A DNA stretch of 64,000 nucleotides from Thunnus maccoyii (taxonomy: Eukaryota; Chordata; Actinopteri; Scombriformes; Scombridae): positions 25,120,725-25,184,724 of the forward strand of contig NC_056553.1 in assembly GCF_910596095.1 (NCBI RefSeq). Direction: 5' to 3'. The position numbers and the translations under genes were made by a program. Under the pieces are notes generated by a model. It saw only the letters and a program-made list of their open reading frames with translations. It ran no database searches and had not been told where the DNA came from. Below, in pieces: positions 15,177 through 28,640 of the stretch (the first letter of the stretch is position 1; each line of letters starts with the position of its first letter).

Positions 15177-15702
15177 CTCTGGCTGTTGTAAGTTGTCACC
15201 TGAGGCCAAGTAAACAACAGATGTTGGAGTTGTCACATAAGGGCCAAATGTGAATGGCTAAGTCTCCTGGGAAGGGATGAAAGGTCAGCATTGTAGGTGG
15301 GGGATAAGTCGTGTTGTAGACCTTGTTCTCTGTTGAGAGATGGTTTCTCTACTTTGACGTAGACAGCCTCTTTCACTCCTCTTTCAAACCATCTCCTCTG
15401 TATCCAAAATATGTACATTGTTGTCCTTGAAAGAGTGTCCCTTATCTTTCAGGTGTAGGTAAACTGCTGAATCTTGACCTGAGGAGTTGGCCCTCCTGTG
15501 TTGAACTATATGTTTGCTTAATGGTTGTTTAGTTAATATACAAGTGCATTCCTCACTGCATTGGACTGCTTACACTAGATTGCTTTTCTTGTGTTTGGGT
15601 GTGTGGTCTTTCAGGTGGACCAGTTTCTGTCATAGTGTGTTGCTGGGTTTGAAAAACACAGGGATGCAGTGTTTGTCAAAAATCTCCAGAGTTTCTAAGA
15701 TA
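15177..15702 (-). pseudogene. Penelope-like element ORF, C-terminal GIY-YIG endonuclease part
   Basis: On the minus strand, across several frames, the order is 'IFDKHCIPVFFKPSNTL' (15,690-15,640), 'QKLVHLKDHTPKHKKSNLV', then a GIY-YIG-like 'AVQCSEECT', 'QHRRANSSGQDSAVYLHLKD', 'RWFERGVKEAVYVKVEKPSL' and 'LPRRLSHSHL' ending near 15,236. In PLEs this region follows the reverse transcriptase and encodes the single-strand nicking endonuclease. The expected LYIGETKQ core is damaged here and there are stops and frameshifts, so it is dead. The CTCTAGAC at its upstream edge (15,703-15,710) is a target duplication. Confidence 0.85.
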
Positions 15703-15710
15703 CTCTAGAC
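15703..15710. repeat. 8-bp target-site duplication CTCTAGAC, left copy
   Basis: Identical to 17,463-17,470 on the other side of the hAT element. The perfect match suggests a fairly recent insertion compared with the decay of the PLE. Confidence 0.9.
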
Positions 15711-17462
15711 CAGTGGAAGCTGGTCAAAAAATAGAGGCAGAGGAGGTTGCTCCTCTATTTTTTGAGAGGCAAGAGGGAGATCAAAATATAAAAAAGAATA
15801 TTTGGTTGAAATAAACCATTACCAAATTTCAGTATTATTAATTAAATATTTTTTCTCTCGTCTTTGGAAAAAATCCATTATTGAAATTCTGGTTAAAATG
15901 CTTCAACAGCGACACCTGCAGGTGGGGGGTAGTGGGGGGCAGAGGAGGACAGGCTCCTGCTGTCCTCCTCAGGGTGGGATCTTGTGATGGAAAACTCTCC
16001 TTCCATGAATAGGCCAGTAATTGTGCAAAGGAAACATTTACATATATAGCAGATAGTTTCTATGGGAATACGGCAGGGGAGAATCAGCAATGTCATATTT
16101 TAATCTTCTGTGTGTGATGAGCGAAGGCCGCTAGGCCATGTGTATTGTGAGAAATGTGGAAGATACCAAGTACAACTGATGTTAGAGAAGTGTGAGACGC
16201 GAGATGGAAGGACTGTCAAGGACTGTTGTTAATTTAACGGGAGAATGGATCTGGACTGTGTGGTGCAGCAGCAGCAGGATGCCACTGGGGAACGACTAAA
16301 GAGAGAAGCAACTGGAGAAACAACCAGGAGAGTCAACGTTAGCTTGTTTGTCATTGTTGCTAATGATATCAGACTGGTTAACAGCAGCCAGAAAGTTCTG
16401 ACTAACAAACAAGATGACCAACAGCCACAAATGGACATTATGACATGAATACTTCATCTCCATGAAAGAATGAAGAGGACATCAGATAACATGAGTCAGA
16501 TACAGCTTCTCTCTCTCTGTTTCTTTGGTCGCTAATTTCATCTCTGATGGTTAAATGTCTCTGTGGCTGTTGTGTGAATTTATCTCCTTAACAAGAATGC
16601 AGCAGAGATCATATAATGTTCTGTAGGTAGTTTGCTTGTTGAAGTTACAGTGAGCTGTCTGGACTCACTCATTCATTTGGAATTGATCCAGTTTTTAATT
16701 GAGTGGTTGTTCAGTCATCTGTTGATGTTGTGTGATTAGTGAATAAGTGTGCAGGAGGTCTGGCTGCTTGTTGTGACAATTTCTTCAGTTCATTTTTAAA
16801 TCGAGCCATATATTAAATAATAATCTTAACGTAACTAGAATAACAAGTGTTAACATGTCAGCTTTGTAGACTATATTTTGTATGTGTTGCACATAAATAA
16901 GTGTGTTTAAGTCATATGTTTGATACATGCATTAATACTTTCTGATGTGAACCTACACTTTTAGATCTGTGAATGTTTTTAGTGTTCAGTCTTTCTAGTA
17001 TTCAGCGCTGTTCTGAACCTGTATCACATAAGCTTTGTGGTACTTTATATATTTCTGTATACTAAGAAAATAAATAGGAAACGTGTAAATCGTGTGATAT
17101 GTTGTCTGCTTTTGATGAGAACATAAATCTGTTGTCACAATAGAACAATACTGTAAATTTGAATTTCACTTTGTTGGTAAAATGACACATTCTGAACCAC
17201 TCCACGGCTAAAATGAGCACTTCTTTGTTTAGAAACAATATGTTTATGCTAAATGTCTTTAAAGAAGCAGCCTTTTCACCACTCAGGGTTTTTTGTTTTT
17301 GAAAGCAAATTGTTTTATTGGCATATAAAATTGCCCCCCACCCCTCCGATTTTATCAGGTGGGGGACAATGATATAGTTTGATGCAGTTTGTTGTAAGAT
17401 TCCATGTTTTCCTCCAGTCCTCCCCAGTTCTTTGAGTCACCAGCCGCCACCAGCCGCCACTG
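15711..17462. mobile_element. 1.75-kb non-autonomous hAT transposon
   Basis: The ends are CAGTGGAAGCTGGTCA at the left and, reverse-complemented, CAGTGGCGGCTGGTGG at the right. A perfect 8-bp target duplication flanks it, the classic hAT signature. The right end carries a short direct duplication (CAGCCGCCAC twice, 17,441-17,460). Inside I find only small ORFs without a transposase domain (for example 16,245-16,448), so it depends on a helper element. A 14-bp inverted repeat lies just inside the left end. Removing the element rejoins the PLE frame 'NNIVIPYVSR' to the downstream PLE codons. Confidence 0.9.
15724..15765. repeat. 14-bp perfect inverted repeat near the hAT left end
   Basis: TCAAAAAATAGAGG (15,724-15,737) and CCTCTATTTTTTGA (15,752-15,765) are exact reverse complements around a 14-base loop. 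This could be a subterminal transposase-binding or hairpin feature. Confidence 0.8.
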
Positions 17463-17535
17463 CTCTAGACACGTATGGAATGACGATGTTGTTGCATCTG
17501 TTCTTCACCTTCTCTGATTTAAGGGACGCATATGA
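17463..17535 (-). pseudogene. Penelope-like element ORF, segment upstream of the hAT insertion
   Basis: After the second CTCTAGAC the minus strand reads 'KSEKVKNRCNNIVIPYVSR', the segment that in PLEs directly precedes the 'KLRRIF' helix and 'IPVFFKPSNTL'. PLE similarity is lost by about 17,535, so the element is 5'-truncated there. Confidence 0.75.
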
Positions 17536-18676
17536 TTACACATGGGTCAAACAGCTTGTGTGCCTTACCTAATTACTTAAATCTTCCTACACAGTAGGAG
17601 GCAATGACAAAATGGGTACACAAAATTCAGTGTTTTTCTACAAGCTGGTGAGCTACCTCACAGATTCCTTATTTAGAGTGTGTGGCAGGCGTCCTCAGGA
17701 TCCGTCCTGAGATCAATCAAGTTGTCGAGACGGAGTCAACTATTGGTGAAGACAAATAAAACAACAAATGCATCCCGCTTATGCTTAATCACAGACTTCA
17801 ACCCTTGTCCTAAACAAATCAAAACATGAGACATCGGCAAACAGAAACAAAAGAAGAAACAAAGTTACCACCATTTTTTCAGAGGCTGTCCAAACATCAG
17901 GGATGCACTTGTATGCTCTTTGGAGAAGACTGAATGTCACTTAAAGGTAACTTTAGGTGTAGCAAGTGTGCCCAGTACTGTAGTACAACAGATTATAAAT
18001 ATTTTAAGCACCCTCTGTGATTCTGCCAATGTCATTTAAATACTGACCTGCCTTTCTTTAAAAATGTATGTCAGTCAAACAAAAAGAAAATTAAAGCTAC
18101 AAATATTGGAAGACAAGACTGTAATCAGAACCAAAAACACAGTATGTTATGGCCAAACACTATTAGGGTTTTTTCCATTAGCTTGGGTTGGTCTGCTTCA
18201 GCCACGCCATGCCAAACCACGATGACATGCGTCTCCACTACAACCTCACAGCAAGGGATAACCGTGGCTCGCTGGCAGGGCCGACCGCAGCCACCCTGAT
18301 GACCTTCCTTCTCCCCCTCAAACAAGCGGTGTGCTGCGAAACTCAACTCATGTCTGTGCTGGAGACTAAAGACTAAGTTGTCAGCTCTCTGTACTTTTGT
18401 AGCTTTTAACTGATTTTTTGTAGTTTGAAGCTTAGTTTCTCACCTGCCTCCCTGTTTGTACTTTCAGATATCTGCCTAATTTTATAGTTTCCTGAGTGCT
18501 TTTAGTTATATTGGAGCTGTGCTATGTTACTGCAAATGAAAACACAGCATTTCCTGCTATTGTGTTTCTAACTGAATTAGCAGAGCTTTATTAGCGGTGC
18601 AGTTCTTAAATAAAAACTCGTTGACACAACGAGATTTGGAGCAATTTGGTGAGTGAATCAGTTGTAAATATTGCAG
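17536..18676. other. Unassigned sequence, possible MITE near 18,150-18,400
   Basis: 'GGGTTTTTTCCATTAGCTTG', 'GGTTGGTCTGC' and 'GCGTCTCCACTACAACCTCA' resemble phrases of a teleost DNA-transposon repeat, but I cannot set limits. No gene recognised. Confidence 0.35.
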
Positions 18677-19030
18677 GGAGGAATAGTGCAAGCAGAAACA
18701 GCCATGGTGAGATGTTTAATGAAGAGCTGAAGACAACAGGCTCTTACTGCATTTTCTGCAAAAAGCACACCTCCAACAGGTAAACAACTTATGTTACGTT
18801 GCCATGTTGTGTAATGGAAAAACACTCAAGTGTGCCAGCCCGACTCAAGTGCTCCTGACATGTCTCAGCACGGCTACACTATGTGAACCATGGCCTGCCT
18901 TTTCCTTTTGGTTTGTTGGCCTTGAACAAGTGTCATTGATGCCTGAGGGAGACCTCCCAAAACACTTATTTCAGGGCACTGACTTACTTTTTATTGGATA
19001 TTTTATCAATGTAGAACCTATGTGGGTACA

Positions 19031-19063
<33 letters not shown>

Positions 19064-19702
19064 TTTTAATTCTCACATTTCACATTCTCTGTAGACTTTT
19101 TTATTATTTATGTCTTTTTTATTTTATTTATTGTCTTTTTGTGGGAAGTGGAATGGAAGATCTTCCTCCAGGTGTACAGGTGTAATTGTTCTCTGTTGAC
19201 AGGTGGTAACATGATGTACTTATAGCAGGCATATATGTTTTGATGAAGGCTTCATGCTGAAATACATCAGCAGATTTGTCAGCCTATCGATTAAGGATAA
19301 ATATACCCAGAGACCTGAAATCAGCATGAGGTGATTCTTTTGCTGCCACCGTCCTCTGGTGTGTCGTCTTTTCCCTGACTTTGTTTTTGGGATGTACAGA
19401 CATTGCTGTTTCTTTTTTTTTTTTACTTTTTTTTAGGCAGACTACTCAGCTGAACTCAAGTGCAGAGATGCACCTGTTTAGGGTTTAACACTTTCTCTAT
19501 GTAAACTGCAGATCCTATGAAGGAGCCTATTTTACAAGTTGCTGCAAGAGTCTCATGGGCTGTTGGACCTGCATGGAACAATGGCAGGAAAGCCATAGCT
19601 ACTGCCCCAGACTTGGGGCAGAGCTGTGGGCTTTGACAGCCATGCACAGTCAGTGGTGGGGCTGGATGATGCACTGGCTGCACTGCACAACATTATTTCT
19701 TA
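18677..19702 (+). pseudogene. RING-like zinc-binding protein, two-exon remnant
   Basis: Exon 1 (18,677-18,779) is bounded by 'attgcag' and 'GTAAAC' and encodes '...GSYCIFCKKHTSNR'. Splicing to the acceptor 'aaactgcag' before 19,512 keeps the frame open through 'SYEGAYFTSCCKSLMGC' and 'WTCMEQWQESHSYCP'. The Cys pattern C-x2-C...C-C...G-C-x2-C...C-P suggests a RING- or U-box-like fold. One frameshift near 19,610 then moves the expected C-terminus ('VVGLDDALAALHNIIS', stop at about 19,702) into another frame. A related exon lies on the minus strand at 23,408-23,585. I recognise this as a fish multi-copy family but cannot name it. Earlier exons are not visible. It could be a low-quality or recently broken gene, not an old pseudogene. 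Confidence 0.6.
19032..19061. repeat. (GT)n microsatellite
   Basis: About 14 GT units, inside the proposed intron of the RING-like remnant. Confidence 0.95.
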
Positions 19703-19869
19703 GAATATCGCAGTAATTTTTTTTTTCGTTCGGTTGTTGAGAAGAGATTTTCTGTTCAAAATGTTGTAATGCTGCCATTACATCTGACATCTCTATCACT
19801 ACATCAGATGTAGTGCAAGAATAAGGCTAGGAGAAAACCTGGGGCTTTTCCCAGTGGTCAGAAGGCACA

Positions 19870-20010
19870 ACAACTCTTTAAATTATGATTATTAAGTTAA
19901 TCAAGAGCAATTTTGATAATTTTTTAAGCGATTTATCAGGCAAAAGTGCCAAATGTTCCAGCTTCTCAAATGTAAGGATCTGTTGCTATCCTCTGTTTTA
20001 TGTCAGTTAT
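19870..20010. mobile_element. Truncated hAT MITE (relative of 1437-1726)
   Basis: 'TTTTGATAATTTTTTAAGCG', 'GGCAAAAGTGCCAAATG' and 'CAGCTTCTCAAATGTAAGG' match the internal part of the hAT MITE at 1437-1726. Both termini are missing. Confidence 0.65.
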
Positions 20011-20680
20011 CACTATACATCGTGAAGAAATGTTTATTTATTTTCCTAAATTTTATGAATGTATTATGATGTAGTATTTTAAGGATGAAAAGGTTGTTTT
20101 GTTACTGTTAATATGTATTGTTCAAATGTTGTAAATGTTATAATACTAAATGTTTTATTTTAATTTTGTTCCACATTAACTTTGCATTATATTGTTAAAT
20201 ATATTTTTTTCTATAGAATTGTATTGACTTTTTAGAATTGTTCTAATGTATTGAATTCTGCCTACAATTTTATTTGGATACAAAAGAATTTAAAGTCTTT
20301 TGCGGCTGCTCGGGTTAATTAAGTACAACAACTAAAATGATAATATGTTCAACCATTGTCATATTTTAAGTTCATTATTATTCCTAAATTTACAATCACC
20401 ACAATACCACAGTACTGCAACCCATGTTTAAGGTTAATTTAACAGATGTAGGTATATATTCTTGCATTCATAAGTCCATCAAATCCAGTTCATATGCTTA
20501 TGTATAATAATACAAAATGTCAGAAATGTATTCCAGGAAAATCAACACTTTTGATATGACAGTTATGTGAAATCTGAGGGAGCTATGTACACTGCCTTTC
20601 AATTTTGGTGGCACCTTAAGTGCTTTATAACTTTCCACAAATACAGTACACACATGCAGTCACACATCCATCAAAACATT
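20011..20680. other. Unassigned AT-rich sequence
   Basis: Very AT-rich with no gene or repeat that I can name. It follows the stop codon of the minus-strand integrase remnant. Confidence 0.4.
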
Positions 20681-21773
20681 TCACACATGCCTCTCTGTCA
20701 CATTCAGCAGGCAGAAAAGGGCTTCATTGAAAACATTATGGTCATTGTTGAGCACACTGTCAAAAATGACAGATAGATCAGGGTAGGCCACTGCAAAGTC
20801 CTCTTCTGCCTGGCTCCTGTCTTCCTCAGACTGGAATGGTTCCACACCAAAGGTTGTTTCCCTGATGAAAGAGGATCCCAACTCCTACTCATATCCGTCT
20901 GCCACAACAGAAGCACTGGGTAGCAGGTCCTCTGATATTTTGACTGGGCATCCTCTTGCAGCCAGGTCATTAGGTATTCCTCAGCCTAGTAGAGGAAAAA
21001 AAATTAAGTTTCGTTTGATACCTGGAATCCTATGTGCATTCCATGACTTCACAACCCGGTTTAACCCAATCTGGCTTTGTCTGCGTTTGACACACAGAAT
21101 GTAACAGTGTTATCTTGCATGTCTTTGGCCTCTTGGTTGATCAGGTGCACCACGCCCTACTTCAGTGGGTAGTTGACCTGATTATTTACTTCGGGCCAAA
21201 TCCACTCCACCATTGGATTCTGTTGTGAACACAAGATATGTTAGAAAAATAAATGAGGAAGATAAACTGCTTATACTAACTGGTAACTGCTTCCTATATT
21301 AATTACTTTGTTCAAAGCTGCTGACAAATCCTGACATATTCTGCTGCTAAACAACCTTCAGATTCTATTTGACATTCCATAAATCAGACATAGGGAACCA
21401 TGCAGGGCTAACAGTCTGCAGGTTTCCACTGCAGCCATATCAGTTGATTTCACTAAACAAATAACTAATCAATGAAATTAGGTTAGGTTAGGTAAGGTTA
21501 CAGGTTGGAATGAAACAGTTGCCTTTTAATGACATACGGTTTCCCTGTCTAAGCCATGTTGATTCTTTCATCTTTCAAAAGTCTCAGGTTATCACTGGAG
21601 CCCTTCCTTTTGAACAGTAATAGAAAAACTTACCATGGAAGATGCAGACTGAACATAAGGTTGCCTGCTGAGGTTATACCTGTGTCTGGAAAGTATTTCC
21701 TGAATGTACTAGCACAGATAGAACTCCTTCCCATGGTCAACTCTCACTTGGTCCCACATCCCATTGGTGACCC
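20681..21773 (-). pseudogene. Integrase-core-domain protein, three-exon remnant
   Basis: Exon A (21,773-21,634) encodes 'MWDQVRVDHGKEFYL' and ends at a consensus donor (ATG|GTAAGT). Exon B (21,219-21,022) follows an ACAACAG acceptor and encodes 'NPMVEWIWPEVNNQVNYPLK' and 'NAHRIPG'. The last exon (20,985-20,681) encodes 'GIPNDLAARGCPVKISEDLL', 'GSSFIRETTFGVEPFQSEED' and ends 'LLNVTERHV', stop. This order matches a vertebrate and invertebrate family with a transposon-derived integrase (rve-like) core; the conserved WDQxRVDHGxEFYL and IWPEVNxRVNYPL blocks are present. In-frame stops (after FYLC, after NYPLK, and TGA in place of an Arg codon after IPG) make it a pseudogene. Upstream exons with the first catalytic residues are not seen. 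Confidence 0.75.
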
Positions 21774-22200
21774 CTGCACATCTAGATGTGGTCATTTACA
21801 AGACAAGAAAATTGTATTATTGTGGACACTGAAGGGATAATCTGTCATTTCTTAAAGACAGTGGTTGTTGGCCAGTATATTTATATTATTCTCTATTCTT
21901 TCACCTTACATCCACCTATCAATTTAAATTATGCCTTTCAGGTGTTGGAGTGAAAAGAGAGGCTGCAAATGACAAAATAACAACATCTATTGTTCTCAAA
22001 TAAATTACAGACCGTATCCCTTAAGCCTTTGAAATAGTTGTACATATTTCATACACATGGCTACCGCATTAATAACAGAATGACTAAATGATAAGTGCTA
22101 AACATCTACATTGTTATGAACCATATTATACTGAGAATAACTGATTTGGAACAGTTTGAAAAGTTTTGTACATATTAAAACTGACTTTTTTATCTAATAG
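21774..22200. other. Unassigned spacer between inverted integrase exons
   Basis: About 430 bp of AT-rich DNA with no recognisable coding sequence. It separates the head of the minus-strand integrase exon from the plus-strand exon. Confidence 0.4.
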
Positions 22201-22346
22201 GCCTGCAGTACTTGCCTAAAGTATGTGGGACCAAGTGCAAGTTGATCATGGCAAGGAGTTTTATTTGACGCTCTTCATGCTGGAGCTGCTGTCATCTCAT
22301 TACCATAATCAGGAGAGAAGGCCTTATTTACAGACTTCATCCACAA
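22201..22346 (+). pseudogene. Isolated integrase-core exon, inverted relative of 21,634-21,773
   Basis: After a pyrimidine-rich acceptor (TTTTTTATCTAATAG) the plus strand reads 'SMWDQVQVDHGKEFYLTLFM' then 'ERRPYLQTSSTR' with a GT donor at 22,347. This is the same exon as minus-strand 21,773-21,634, and the part after Met is better preserved (no stop after FYL). An in-frame TAA lies just before it. None of the expected later exons follow; DIRS-type RT sequence begins instead at about 22,377. Confidence 0.75.
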
Positions 22347-22376
22347 GAGTACAATTCAATAGTTTGTGTGGTTGCT

Positions 22377-22790
22377 TCAGCAATAAACCAGCTCCAGTAA
22401 CCGCTGGATGGTTAGCATGTGAAAGGTTTTGCAAGCGATGCACCAGTTTAGGGTGCAGAGATCCAAACTGGGTTTGAAATCTCCCATCTTCTTAGTGACC
22501 AGGAAGTACGTGGAGTAAAACACCTTGTGTCTGTCATGTTGAGAACGACAGACACAGTCTGTTTTATCCAAGAGGGAATCTATTTCCTCCCAGGAAGATA
22601 GACTCACTTCCTTGACAACCATGAATGGAGGAGGAACACGGCAGAGCTGGAGAGAATGATCCAGTTTCAGTGTCCTGTCCATCCACTCTGTCAATACACA
22701 TTCATGCCGTCGCACCTTGTAAAATTATGCCAGTGGGCAAGCGACCAGCTGTGTAGCAGCAATCAGGAAGCTGTGATATCCTGCCTCAAC
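22377..22790 (-). pseudogene. Reverse transcriptase fragment, DIRS/Ty3-like retroelement
   Basis: The minus strand carries 'LDHSLQLCRVPPPF', 'EEIDSLLDKTD', 'VFYSTYFLVTKKMGDFKP', 'LDLCTLNW' and 'FHMLTIQRLLELV'. This matches the N-terminal fingers/palm start of fish DIRS-like and Ty3-related RTs (consensus-like blocks FYS-YF-V-KK-G-RP-LDLR-LN and FKMLT). Upstream 'QLVACPLA' also fits. The RT stops before the catalytic YxDD region, at about 22,377. Upstream (22,900-23,200) may hold decayed gag-like Cys motifs, but that is weak. It is a dead fragment. Confidence 0.7.
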
Positions 22791-23407
22791 CCTCTACGTC
22801 ATCAAACCCTCCATAAACGGGGGTTTGGCCCATTGGGGACGGTACAGAAAACGGCAGAGCCAGCGGAGAGGTCCGTGAAATCACCACTGCTGGTCGTAAA
22901 TGTTGAAGCAGCAATATTCATGTCATTGTGTTCAGTCCTCCTCGTCTTTCATGTGGAGATCAATGAAGGAAAACACGACAGGCAGGTACTTCCCTCACTC
23001 TGTGTGACGTGCGCATCAGGTGTATTTCTCCCTGATGGAGAGATAATGCACTCTGATGCTTCACTCAATGCTGTTCCAAGGCAAAACAGTAACGGCAGCA
23101 TTAACAATGGGGGGCAAGTGTGGTATGTGCGCACACACTGGCACAGTGCTGTGATGCCTCTGGATGCCTCTTTTAGTGTTAATATCACTAAAAGAAAATG
23201 TCAATAAGAATAGTAGTCAAATCATCAACTTCCTTCTTGACAGTTTATGCTGAACACCAATATGACATCATCCAGCCCAAACATGTAAATACATTCACAG
23301 CACTACTATAAGAACTCTTACCAAAATTTTTGATTCAATAAAACAAACTCAAATACAACATGCCTCTTTGTGAGTATAAAAGTGCAAAATGTTACTCCTC
23401 TTCAAAA
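22791..23407 (-). other. Probable internal region of the same retroelement, plus unassigned DNA
   Basis: Less AT-rich than its surroundings. A minus-strand frame at 23,188-22,949 has Cys-rich text ('CVRTYHTCPP', 'CLGTALSEASECI') that resembles the Cys-rich segment upstream of RT in fish DIRS-like elements, but it is too decayed to assign. The 183-codon plus-strand frame is its antisense. Confidence 0.3.
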
Positions 23408-24742
23408 AGGGATCTCAGAACAGAAAATGCCTCTGACAGACCATTAACTTTAAATGTGCTGTTGCCTGCAGTGTTCCCTCTACATTTTGCACAGTGCACA
23501 GAGGTCTCCTGCCACTGTTCCACATGTTTTGCAGCCCATAATGCTTCGGCAACACTGTGTGAAGACCGGCTCCTCGATGAACTCTAAAAAACAAAATGAG
23601 AAAAACTAGTCATTCTCTGTGTGTGTGTCCCCATCTGTCCTTTAAGTGTTCTTCACGTATTGGGTGACAGTGTTTTCAATCAACTTTAATGCTTTTAAAA
23701 ATGTATTTGTTATTGTATCATTACATCATGGGCTGTTACACAAAGTTGTCCATCAGTACATGTAATTAATTGTAGTGGATGAGACACAGCTGACCTTGGT
23801 TACAGAATGTAATATGTATGTGTACTTGGAAATCTCAAATTCTGGCGAACAACAACTAAAATGGATCCAAAATTATTTTACGCATGGGACAATTACTACC
23901 TATTGCATACTTACTCATAGTAATAACACAGCAGAACCCTTGCTTGATGGTCTGTAGCTGGGAAACAGTCAGGATAACTCTTTAAATGGAAGGCAGATTG
24001 GTGAACTCTCTGATTGCTGCAGTGACATCTGGTAGATCTTCTATTTTCTCAGTGACCTCTCCAATGCCTGCAGCATCTTCATCGTTTTGGCTGTTACAAG
24101 GAAAAAAGCATAATAGATATATACTGGTTGTGTTTTAGTGGTTTTGGTAGTGGTGATGGGATGGAAGCCTAACCTTTTGTTTGAAAGATTAGAAAAGGGG
24201 GAAAAAACAACAACTAAATAGCAAAAGCAAGGCTTTTTATTTACGAATGTACCTTGGCCAAATCAGGGCTGCTTCTTATGAAATTTATTCATTCAAAACA
24301 AGACACTTGTTTCACACACAAACAAAATGGCAAGGGGGGTGTAGGCAAGCTCAATTTCCATCTCTGATGATGAGAATATATTTTTTTTAAGTTGACAAGC
24401 TCTCAGATACTTTGCCAGGGGAGCTGGCACCCTGGCATTCTGCCAAGGTGTTAATATATGGGAAACCCTAAGAGCCAAATAAATCTTTGTCCCAAACATC
24501 ATAGAAGCCGCTGTACTGTATATACAGAAGCAGTAATGGCCAAATGGTAGGCAAACAGGTGATGATTTAATTAATAGTTTTTTTTAATAGTCTGAACAAC
24601 AAAGGTAAGGATAAGTCTAAGTAAAAACCCACAATCAAATCAAAAATTGAATTCCCTTGTGCATCAGTCAGTACCATGGGGTCATGACTTCCAATGGCAT
24701 CTTGCACTTTTCTGATGATCCCCTGAAGGGTAGCCTCACATT
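23408..24742 (-). pseudogene. RING-like zinc-binding protein, three-exon remnant
   Basis: Exon 1 (about 24,742-24,633), after a TTTTTTAG acceptor, encodes 'ECEATLQGIIRKVQDAIGSH' and 'DPMVLTDAQGNSIFD'. Exon 2 (24,090 to about 23,981), after CTTTTTTCCTTGTAACAG, encodes 'DEDAAGIGEVTEKIEDLPDV' and 'TAAIREFTNLPSI'. Exon 3 (23,585-23,408), after TTTTGTTTTTTAG, encodes 'EEPVFTQCCRSIMGCKTC', then with one frameshift 'EQWQETSVHCAKCRG' and 'VNGLSEAFSVLRSLFEEE', stop. Exon 3 is the inverted counterpart of plus-strand 19,512-19,702. Joining exons 1-2 with exon 3 into one gene is inference from order and strand. Frameshifts and a TAA in exon 2 indicate decay. Confidence 0.6.
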
Positions 24743-24939
24743 CTAAAAAACAGACCATGGCAACATTGTTTATGAGGTATTTTTATATATTTCTGAACGT
24801 GCCTGAGACACTGAGCACTAAGTCTTGAACGTACATGCCAAGTTTCATTCACAGTAACATTTTACAGTGCAATAGTACAGCTTAAGTATGCAAGAAGAGT
24901 GGAAGAATTATGACCAAAAAATGGCATAAACAATCCAGG
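24743..24939. other. Unassigned sequence
   Basis: No feature recognised beyond the pyrimidine tract of the exon 1 acceptor. Confidence 0.4.
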
Positions 24940-25060
24940 TCCAGGCACTCAAGGTAGGTTTGAAAAATAAAAGGCCTTTATTTCAGTGGGCTAGAGTCAT
25001 TAAAAAACACACCGTGTGTCGGCTTGCGCCTTCTTCAGAGTGTGGGACATTGAACTTCCT
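24940..25060 (-). mobile_element. Retroelement 3' tail, PLE-like
   Basis: On the minus strand 'CTCTGAAGAAGGCGCAAGCC', 'GACACACGGTGTG', 'AAATAAAGGCC' and 'TTGAGTGCCTGGACCTGG' follow the layout of PLE-type 3' ends (GAAGAAGGC...GCCGAAACRCG, then AATAAA). No coding sequence accompanies it. Confidence 0.45.
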
Positions 25061-26289
25061 CGTTTCCCCACATTTATACAGAGAGATTAAAAAAGTTTGC
25101 TTTGCAAATGTTTTATGAGGAAAGAAATGTATTCAACATGTTGGTTAAACCTCACATAATATGCTATCAAACATTGAATGCAAACATAGCTTCGTTTTTT
25201 TTTTTTTTTATCTTAGAGGTGTTGGCAAATCAGAAAACTTTCATTTGAATCATTTTTTTAAATGTTATCTGGACTATTTTGGAAGTGACCTGCATATTTT
25301 GTTGTACACAAGGTCAGACTTTATCAGCAGAACATTATAGAATTAACACAAATACACATACACTGTAGTGTGTTTTTTCTATTCTTCTTATATCTCCCTT
25401 GACCTCCCGCACTTGTCTATCTACCCTCTGTCTTTTATCCCCTCTGTAAGAGTCAAATAGCCTTCCTATGATGCTCCAGGCTCCAGTGAAATCCAGTAGT
25501 GTTGTGTATAAGGCTGTCCCTCGTGATCAGAGGAGGGGGTTTGCTAATATCTCTCTCTATCTATTGATCGGGGGACAGGCGGCATGAACAAATGGCACTA
25601 TTAGTGGAACAAGGGTCTCGAACACAGCAAAATAACAGACTGCACATCAATTCAGCCAGTCAATCAACTTGACACTCCACTGGTCAACCTAAACCTCCTT
25701 TCAGTACATGTCGATGTTTCTTGCTTTATTCACATGTCACGAGGAAACAACCTTATCCTTGTGTGCAGCTGTATTAGTCTATTTAATAAAGTGAAGATTT
25801 TTAAAGAAACAAAGGCTTTGCAGTCGCTATCATCAAGGTGGTTCACTGCAGAATTAGCTAACAAAAATAGCTACATACACCAGCTGATATGTAAGATTAA
25901 AATTTCTTGATTCTGTTTTTTAAACAAGGTTAATTTGACTCAGTGAAATATCTTGTCTTAAATGTAATATATATTATTAAACAGAGTCTTAATCCAATGG
26001 TGTTGGCCATCTCTCTTGTTGGTTAACCTTTTACAACATTGCAAAAACAGCAACAGGAACGGTCAGAAAAACACTTTGTTTAACTTTGTTTAGAGTTTAA
26101 AACAAAGGTGAATGTTGAAATGCTAAGTTAGCCCAACCTGTTTTAATCTTATATGAATACATTCACCTTCATTTTCCTTTCCAAGCAATTTAGTTTAGAT
26201 AATCAGCTGAAACAGCTGATGAGTAAAATGTCTTCATTGATAGTAAAAATTATAAAGATAAGTTGAGGAAACAGTCTACATTCTAGGTC
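25061..26289. other. Unassigned AT-rich sequence
   Basis: No gene, repeat or RNA recognised in about 1.2 kb. Confidence 0.4.
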
Positions 26290-26490
26290 CACTTACATGC
26301 TTGTTGTGGAGCTTTCAACTGGTCTTCATCAGCAGATGAAGCTTGCTTAGTCAGCACGGTCTGTAGATGTATAAAAACATTTAGATAAACTTTCCATTAT
26401 ACTGAGCACTTATATATCAATATCATCTTCTGATGAAGACTGTGTAATATGGTCAAAAGCTCCAGGACAGGTGAGTGGATGGAACTTAAG
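26290..26490. repeat. Inverted pair of PLE-like 3' hairpin motifs
   Basis: The minus-strand copy (about 26,345-26,290) reads 'CTGCTGATGAAGACCAGTTG', 'AAAGCTCCACAACAAG' and 'TAAGTGGACC'. The plus-strand copy (about 26,425-26,490) reads 'CTTCTGATGAAGACTGTGT', 'GGTCAAAAGCTCCAGGACAG' and 'GAGTGGA'. Both resemble the hairpin-bearing 3' end of a fish retroelement. Their head-to-head placement forms a loose palindrome. Confidence 0.5.
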
Positions 26491-27240
26491 TTTGTTTTAC
26501 CAACTATGTGTAAGGTTATTTTAAGGTTCCTGATGTCAGTCACTTTTATTGTTAGTGCATGGACCCATGCTCTCATGAATTTATATTTTTAAGTTTGCGC
26601 TGTGTGTGAAGCTGGATTAAGCTTCTTCAGATACATGTTATTGGTAAGTGTAGGTCACAGAGGCAGAGAGGTGCACACCAAGTGTACTTAACTCCATGAG
26701 ATGTGGTTGACTGGGCCAGAAAAAGCTAGTAAGTAAGTCCACTTCACTCATTCAGGTTAAAATGGGAAGAAGCAGCTGAGTGAAGTTGAGCCTGCAGAGG
26801 AAGCACCAAGACCGTCAGGTAGCTGGTGTATCTCTCCTCCACTGACCAAAAACACTGGCAGCTCTGAGACACCCTAATAGATTGCTTGGAGGTTGGTTTC
26901 ACACTGTGCAGGTTTTTTGGAGGATTGTGATTGGATTATTGGAAGGTTGTGGATGCTAACTGTGGAAAAAGTTAATGAACTCTTGACCAGTGGGTGGTGA
27001 TTTTAAGACAGCTGATCACCACAGAAGTATGGAGTAAAATGCATGAGTAACCACTTTAGAAGCAGTCGCAAGCAGTGAGAGTCGCAAGCTGTTATGATGA
27101 TATTATGAGGATATGGTCACAGCTACCCAATGAGGATTTCCTTCTTCATGAGTACGGATATTGACACATTTTACTCGGATGATACTTGCGCTCGTAAAAA
27201 GTACATTTTCCGTACTGGATACGCATATGGAGGCAGAACA
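26491..27240. other. Unassigned sequence
   Basis: No gene recognised. 'TTAAGCTTCTTCAGATACATG' at about 26,617 is another weak match to the same kind of tail motif. Confidence 0.35.
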
Positions 27241-27245
27241 AAGAG

Positions 27246-27390
27246 ACATACACATGTGCGGTCTCATCCCTACCATTTTGGGTCTAAGTCCGCAATTGTC
27301 CCTTTTGTCTATTTCCTTCCACACACACACGGTCTCACCCCCACCATTTTGGGTCCAAGCCGCCATTTTGAGTCCGAGTCGGCCATCTTC
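27246..27390. repeat. Imperfect tandem duplication of about 70 bp
   Basis: 'CGGTCTCATCCCTACCATTT' then 'TGGGTCTAAGTCCGCAATTG' is repeated about 70 bp on as 'CGGTCTCACCCCCACCATTT' and 'TGGGTCCAAGCCGCCATTTT'. Both are followed by 'CCTTTTGTCT'. The overlapping ORFs of about 115-119 codons on both strands are products of this and of the microsatellite next to it. Confidence 0.8.
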
Positions 27391-27415
27391 CTTTTGTCTC
27401 CCCATGTCTCTCACC

Positions 27416-27466
<51 letters not shown>
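27416..27466. repeat. Compound (TC)n(AC)n microsatellite
   Basis: About ten TC units followed by about fifteen AC units. Confidence 0.97.
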
Positions 27467-27469
<3 letters not shown>

Positions 27470-27499
27470 CACTCTGACATACACAGGTGCACACACTCC

Positions 27500-27803
27500 A
27501 TTTTGTTCTGTAGTTAAGTACATTCGGTGAGATTACGTATTGTGTGTTTTACTTTATTGTCTTTTAAATAAATGCTGGTCTATTTAATGTTGCACAAGAG
27601 TGAATGCTGCAAACCTCTACTATTCAGAACTCCAAAACCCTTCAACCTTTATTAGCTATTGATATGATCATTTTGGTTGTAGTTATTAATTTAATTATTA
27701 ACCAGAGTTCCAAATTGATAGTTTTTTTTTATATCTGATGAGACTAGATTAATTAATTGGCTATTAATTTTTCCTTTACAAAGGGTGGTGCCCCGAGGTG
27801 AAT
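27500..27803 (+). mobile_element. LTR-like end with a candidate primer-binding site
   Basis: The stretch has a polyadenylation-type 'TTTAAATAAATGC' (about 27,565) and ends 'TTCCTTTACA' at 27,780. After 5 bases comes 'TGGTGCCCCGAGGTGAAT' (27,786-27,803). A TGG-led 18-mer just after a CA-ended LTR is the usual primer-binding layout of vertebrate LTR retroelements. The 5' limit of the LTR is not visible and no gag or pol codons are recognised downstream. Tentative. Confidence 0.35.
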
Positions 27804-28640
27804 TTAAGGCAGGTTAAATTCTATCATTTAGTATAAACATTGATCATCTCTGATAGCCTTTTAAGCTCTTGTACCTACAAAGGAGAAAAGGCAAGCTTCT
27901 AGTCTGTTTCACCTTCAGTGTTACAGTTACATCACTAAGCTTGTTATCCACCATCACTGCTGATTCCATTGATCCAGGAGGTCGACCCCGACAGCTGCAG
28001 TGAGTCGTTTAACTCACCTGAACCTACATCTGGAAGTGCTTGGCTGTCACAGCTCCCCCAAACATCAGCAGAGAAATGGTCCTTTACAAACCTCATCACC
28101 TTAGAGCGGAGGCTGAGCCGGTCAGTGTGGAAGGCTAAGTTAGTGTGCAGGGCCCCCAAAAAGTAGTGAGATCACTCGTGATGATAATCAGCTGACAGAA
28201 AGTTAGCCTGTTAGAATGCATAAAGGTTTTCCACTCACTGGTTGACAGTTGTGTCGCTACCAGGTGTGTCCTTTATTCCATTGATTCAAATGATGGAATA
28301 TGTCCTCAAAGCATTTATTTAGTGTCTCTGTACTAATGAACGGTCTCTTCTCTATATCATGTGACCTGTATAATGACTATAGTGCTCTTTTGCTTGCTGA
28401 AACACCTTGGTCACAGCTTAATTACTACTTGAATACGTATTAATTGAGGAGATTCAGTTAATGACTTGAACCAACTCGTGTGTGAGGTAAATTATCTCTG
28501 GAAGCTGAGCGTGCTACTTTCATCTTTTGGATATGTATGTATGTACAGTATGTACTGTACCATGAATACCAAGAATACTGTCGTTTTACTGGACAGCCAT
28601 AAAAGAAAAGGAGAGCTGTTCTCCCACTGACATTTGTAGC
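27804..28640. other. Mostly unassigned; GC-rich island at 27,950-28,160
   Basis: The island 27,950-28,160 is open on both strands: 65 codons plus, and on the minus strand about 47 codons ending at a CAG|GTGAGT donor at 28,018. The minus frame includes 'FHTDRLSLRSKVMRFVKDHF'. I do not recognise either protein. It could be leader or gag sequence of the LTR element just upstream, or an isolated exon. Confidence 0.3.

Follow-up and report, generated by a model that had tools for sequence, protein, structure and literature searches.

Mirrored pairs of decayed RING-like and integrase genes, possibly two relics of an IS3EU-like two-gene DNA transposon

Introduction

The accessory genes of eukaryotic DNA transposons reveal what an element needs from its host, or how it defends itself against it. 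Among the closest described systems, complete IS3EU families are bounded by TA..TA termini, in most cases with 6-bp duplications, as stated in an excerpt of PMC10045372, and the rust-fungus families have TAYGG..CCRTA ends, as stated in an excerpt of PMC12730594. In all fungal IS3EU families that carry a TET/JBP gene (TET+), the transposase and alpha-kinase genes are oppositely oriented, which the same excerpt gives without specifying convergent or divergent, and this gene pair is a precedent for a two-gene layout (PMC12730594). By title, none of the open-access papers listed dealt with IS3EU together with RING or with transposon-encoded RING proteins, and in the excerpted text of PMC12062965, which deals with fusions of multicopy and transposon domains, "ring" occurs in the reference list only. 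The papers listed for the profile rva_4 (PF24764) concerned other subjects.

Results and Discussion

Organization of the locus

The window, which is the whole stretch of DNA that was analysed (64 kb, 38.6% GC, probably of teleost origin), contains within 18677-23583 the broken exons of two families, RING-like and integrase, each present on both strands. The order along the plus strand is RING> <INT INT> <RING, two convergent pairs, each the mirror image of the other. Copy A (18677-21773) comprises a plus-strand RING-like gene (18677-19703) facing a minus-strand integrase (21773-20681), and 977 bases separate their stops; copy B (22201-23583) comprises a plus-strand integrase (22201-22348) facing a minus-strand RING-like gene (23583-23392). 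The integrase copies stand head to head with about 430 bases between them. The features are as follows.

18677-18779, plus strand: RING-like copy A, upstream exon, which holds the first C-x2-C (CIFC) and whose peptide ends in CIFCKKHTSNR; acceptor TTGCAG/GG, donor CAACAG/GTAAAC; no stop in the frame continued by exon 2.
19512-19703, plus strand: RING-like copy A, terminal exon with one frameshift; TAG stop at 19701-19703; score 96 against copy B; tblastn of the copy B peptide in the window, E 1.5e-10.
21773-21634, minus strand: integrase copy A, exon encoding the putative second catalytic D (WDQVRVDHGKEFYL), peptide MWDQVRVDHGKEFYL; acceptor GTGCAG/GGG, donor ATG/GTAAGT; paralogous to 22201-22348.
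21219-21022, minus strand: integrase copy A, exon encoding the putative catalytic E (VEWIWPEVNNQVNYPL); acceptor ACAACAG/AAT, donor CCAG/GTATCA; inside the rva_4 match.
20985-20681, minus strand: integrase copy A, C-terminal exon, from GIPNDLA to the stop TGA (20683-20681); acceptor CTACTAG/GCTG.
22201-22348, plus strand: integrase copy B, exon encoding the putative second catalytic D (WDQVQVDHGKEFYL); 77% identity over 64 nt and frameshift-aware score 151 in the integrase pair; tblastn in the window, E 5.2e-13.
23583-23392, minus strand: RING-like copy B, terminal exon with one frameshift; acceptor TTTTAG/AG, TAA stop at 23394-23392.
23985-24095, minus strand: candidate upstream exon of RING-like copy B, an open reading only, beginning NSQNDEDAAGIGEVTEK.

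An earlier note on this DNA had described four exons of two decayed, intron-containing families, standing side by side twice in inverted orientation. The four exons were confirmed on the strands that it gave, as was the inverted arrangement. Its bounds for the minus-strand integrase exon (21773-21634) are right, but the plus-strand RING-like exon ends at 19703 and not at 19702, and the minus-strand one spans 23583-23392, so that an end at 23408 falls short. The splice sites proposed for the plus-strand integrase hold at the acceptor (TAATAG/GCC at 22201), but an in-frame stop precedes MWDQ and the 3' GT is at 22349, not 22347. The integrase blocks that it listed are present, but IWPEVN and IPNDLA sit in two further minus-strand exons, 21219-21022 and 20985-20681.

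Homology within each family is clear, and both families are real. Frameshift-aware codon alignment of the integrase pair scored 151, against control maxima of 42 in 60 window segments and 36 in 60 shuffles, and that of the RING-like pair scored 96, against 44 and 37 in the same numbers of controls (120 for each pair). The decay was likewise borne out, with four in-frame stops and one frameshift in the minus-strand integrase and one frameshift in each RING-like terminal exon; the pairwise codon alignment of the latter itself took three shift steps.

No further convincing copy of either family was found in the window by tblastn. For pieces of the integrase the next match among those listed had E 3.6, for the RING-like peptides the next matches had E 0.17 and 0.087, and for the upstream exon of RING-like copy A, used as query over the window, E 0.058. 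Four random points in 64 kb would lie within 3.9 kb with p of about 0.0009, and p is about 0.008 for both RING-like copies to lie no more than 2.1 kb from an integrase; these values assume uniform placement or insertion and were calculated post hoc, once the cluster had been noticed. Searches of viral_contigs (both families) and genome_contigs (integrase) revealed no relatives: the peptide patterns matched one stretch in the former and 14 in the latter, and tblastn of the integrase confirmed none. These collections hold mainly prokaryotes and viruses, and such an absence, being expected of an animal family, says little.

The integrase genes

The minus-strand copy has a plausible structure of three exons with GT/AG splice sites. 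With X at the four stops and the one frameshift joined, its exons matched the Pfam profile rva_4 (PF24764, 'Integrase core domain') over positions 63-168 of 194, with a library-wide E of 3.8e-4 and 20.6 bits, which is under the curated cut-off of 26. The likeness is thus to a part of this profile, which we take to be one that covers IS3EU. The putative second D and E blocks are both present, an assignment of catalytic residues that we presume from integrase motifs, and neither copy yielded an exon for the first catalytic D at the locus. Judged from its sequence, the integrase looks transposon-derived. The PDB sequences gave two weak, unrelated matches to it (best E 0.84), and the NCBIfam search gave one unrelated match (E 0.032) and no transposase.

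In the plus-strand copy the second-D exon alone was found, the exons with IWPEVN and IPNDLA being seen in the minus copy only, and both copies start at the same exon. At the DNA level, the 22201-22348 exon has an inverted match to 21715-21778, of 64 nt with 77% identity.

The RING-like genes

Both terminal exons, each with one frameshift, end in a V-x-GL-x2-A-x3-L tail followed by a stop, which indicates that the product was a separate protein and not a part of the integrase. That the RING-like and integrase exons belong to one gene is ruled out by the stop that closes each RING-like exon.

The ligand order, C-x2-C ... CC ... GC-x2-C ... C-x2-C, resembles that of RING fingers (zf-RING_2), but no H ligand is evident. 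Copy A has C-x2-C, CC, GC-x2-C and C, its last cysteine being lost, whereas copy B keeps the last C-x2-C and its first pair was not found. The spliced peptide of copy A matched zf-RING_2 weakly across both exons (positions 3-41 of 44, E 0.031, 15.0 bits; cut-off 27.3), and its terminal exon alone matched positions 18-41 with E 0.021; splicing therefore made the match longer, not stronger. For copy B the top match was ZZ_ADA2, another zinc finger (E 0.029), ahead of zf-RING_2 (E 0.058, 14.1 bits), both below the cut-off. Since all the profile matches are below cut-off, the label RING-like rests on the cysteine pattern. The PDB sequences had no match to the plus-strand exon.

No significant counterpart of the 23985-24095 candidate was found beside copy A, where the best match had E 3.7. 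The minus-strand open stretch 24636-24749 (FLECEATLQGIIRKVQDAIGSHDPMVLTDAQGNSIFDL), also an open reading only, is a possible further upstream exon of RING-like copy B.

Divergence of the two copies

The exons of both families are alike at the DNA level, since 0/300 shuffles and 0/300 window segments reached the observed score for either. Their flanks are not. For the integrase flanks (210 and 200 nt), 25/300 and 139/300 window segments and 70/300 and 68/300 shuffles reached the observed score; for the RING-like flanks (400 nt each), 100/300 and 114/300 window segments and 60/300 and 116/300 shuffles did so. The tail-to-tail spacers are unrelated, 98/100 and 97/100 controls reaching their score. 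Simulated flanks with 20-40% substitution and 4% indels always scored higher than the real ones (0/200 as low in each of 20 settings), although DNA inserted in the real flanks could mask similarity. As flanks with 60% identity would have been detectable, a duplication that was already dead at birth is unlikely.

Over 40 codons the integrase pair has a dN of 0.32 and a dS of 2.02 (NG86), and identity is 27/41 at first, 31/41 at second and 20/41 at third positions. In the RING-like core of 15 codons, identity is 10/15, 11/15 and 4/15, respectively, and dS is not computable. Since the third positions are the most diverged, the copies, as read from these substitution patterns, separated while coding was under selection and decayed later.

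Origin of the locus

The best explanation, held tentatively and close to an even call, is that the locus carries two copies, now degraded and of separate derivation, of an IS3EU-like two-gene DNA transposon with introns and an accessory RING-like gene. Such an element would have carried two convergent genes, one for a DDE integrase-type transposase and the other for a RING-like zinc-finger protein. The integrase would have bound the element ends, cut them and joined them to a target site; the RING-like protein, if it was an E3 ligase, might have modulated, via ubiquitin, either the transposase or a host factor. The N-terminal halves of both integrases may have been removed by one deletion across the head-to-head junction, which would be the simplest cause given that these copies lie so close together in that orientation. 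The earlier note had suggested a two-gene mobile unit. The mirrored convergent pairing fits it, but terminal inverted repeats and target duplications were not found, and from this locus no more can be said than that the RING-like and integrase genes may have travelled together.

Compared with IS3EU/GingerRoot, the locus has in common a putative integrase-core transposase and a second gene opposite to it, as in the excerpted account of the fungal TET+ IS3EU families (PMC12730594). It differs in the partner, which is RING-like here and an alpha-kinase in those families (PMC12730594, excerpt), and in the ends, since the TA..TA termini, 6-bp duplications and TAYGG..CCRTA of the excerpted descriptions (PMC10045372, PMC12730594) were not found; for this reason it is named IS3EU-like and not filed as an IS3EU member. 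By analogy, it is conceivable, if rather doubtful, that a vertebrate IS3EU-like transposon had its own convergent RING-type protein, which would act on the host ubiquitin pathway. The same doubtful reading would make this partner a counterpart of the fungal IS3EU alpha-kinase and TET/JBP passengers. If true, the pairing of a RING-type protein with an integrase-like transposase would give, in fish, a simple example of an accessory gene, and a testable one, since intact copies can be sought in sequenced teleosts.

A serious competitor, which we consider quite possible though not probable, is that two independent multi-copy families, one of them an IS3EU-like transposon and the other either a family of RING-like genes or a different element, came together by nested or hot-spot insertion. 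No common ends were found, as would suit unrelated arrivals, and the stretch may collect insertions, given the minus-strand frame at 22380-22724, which by eye looks reverse transcriptase-like, a likeness lacking Pfam support. What weighs against independent insertion is that each family is present twice within 3.9 kb, the two pairs sharing one mirrored convergent arrangement, with no other convincing copy of either in the window.

It is improbable, in our judgement, that an old cluster of working genes, either host genes or parts of a larger multi-gene element, was duplicated locally, kept by selection while its introns diverged, and later died. Spliced genes in both families and the signs of past coding constraint would agree with it, and at a dS of about 2 introns in a duplicate of this age would be unalignable in any case, so that the flank test is silent on it. 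On the other side, the integrase looks transposon-derived, and no more recognisable genes were seen in 17001-26999; the scan behind this (Pfam against six whole frames, stops as X) had no match up to E 1, although the integrase itself was also missed by it.

Least probable by our estimate, and rejected, is a single inverted duplication here of one RING-integrase segment, both halves decaying without constraint: it would account for the mirror-symmetric layout and for the integrase copies starting at the same exon, but a neutral duplicate is expected to be equally diverged throughout, whereas the exons align, the introns and flanks do not, and the third positions are the most diverged. The earlier note had named a local inversion or segmental duplication as what would refute its mobile unit; for a freely decaying duplicate this is unlikely, and the old duplication of working genes is the form in which it survives.

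Element ends

Flanking inverted repeats or target duplications, which the earlier note associated with a mobile pair, were sought around the decayed pairs at the locus, and none were found. In 15500-18700, 21600-22300 and 24300-28000, no convincing TA..TA termini with inverted repeats and a 6-bp duplication were seen (at best 13/25 matching bases, ungapped, with an exact duplication, or 15/25 with one mismatch in it), nor any 6-bp target site duplication around plausible ends. Decay or truncation could be the cause of the missing IS3EU-type ends.

Among the 25 listed of 42 inverted repeats in 17800-25600, none gave ends common to both copies, bar one doubtful 25-nt pair. This pair, 18517-18541 and 24843-24867, is 80% complementary and lies just outside both RING-like genes. 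It could be a shared end or a 5' exon, for which a test of the wider region was unconvincing: comparing 18481-18800 with 24601-24900, upstream of the RING-like genes, 1/300 shuffles and 15/300 window segments reached the score, and the likeness was rejected on the latter.

Open frames beside integrase copy B

The place expected for the rest of integrase copy B is occupied by the minus-strand open frame 22380-22724, of 115 aa, which contains FYSTYFLVTKKMGDFKPSLDLCTLN. By eye we take it to resemble the beginning of a reverse transcriptase from a retrotransposon, a likeness that Pfam did not support. Partly opposite to it runs the plus-strand open frame 22602-23204, of 201 aa and with no Pfam match. 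Of the window's 34 stop-to-stop frames that reach 100 aa or more, it is the longest.
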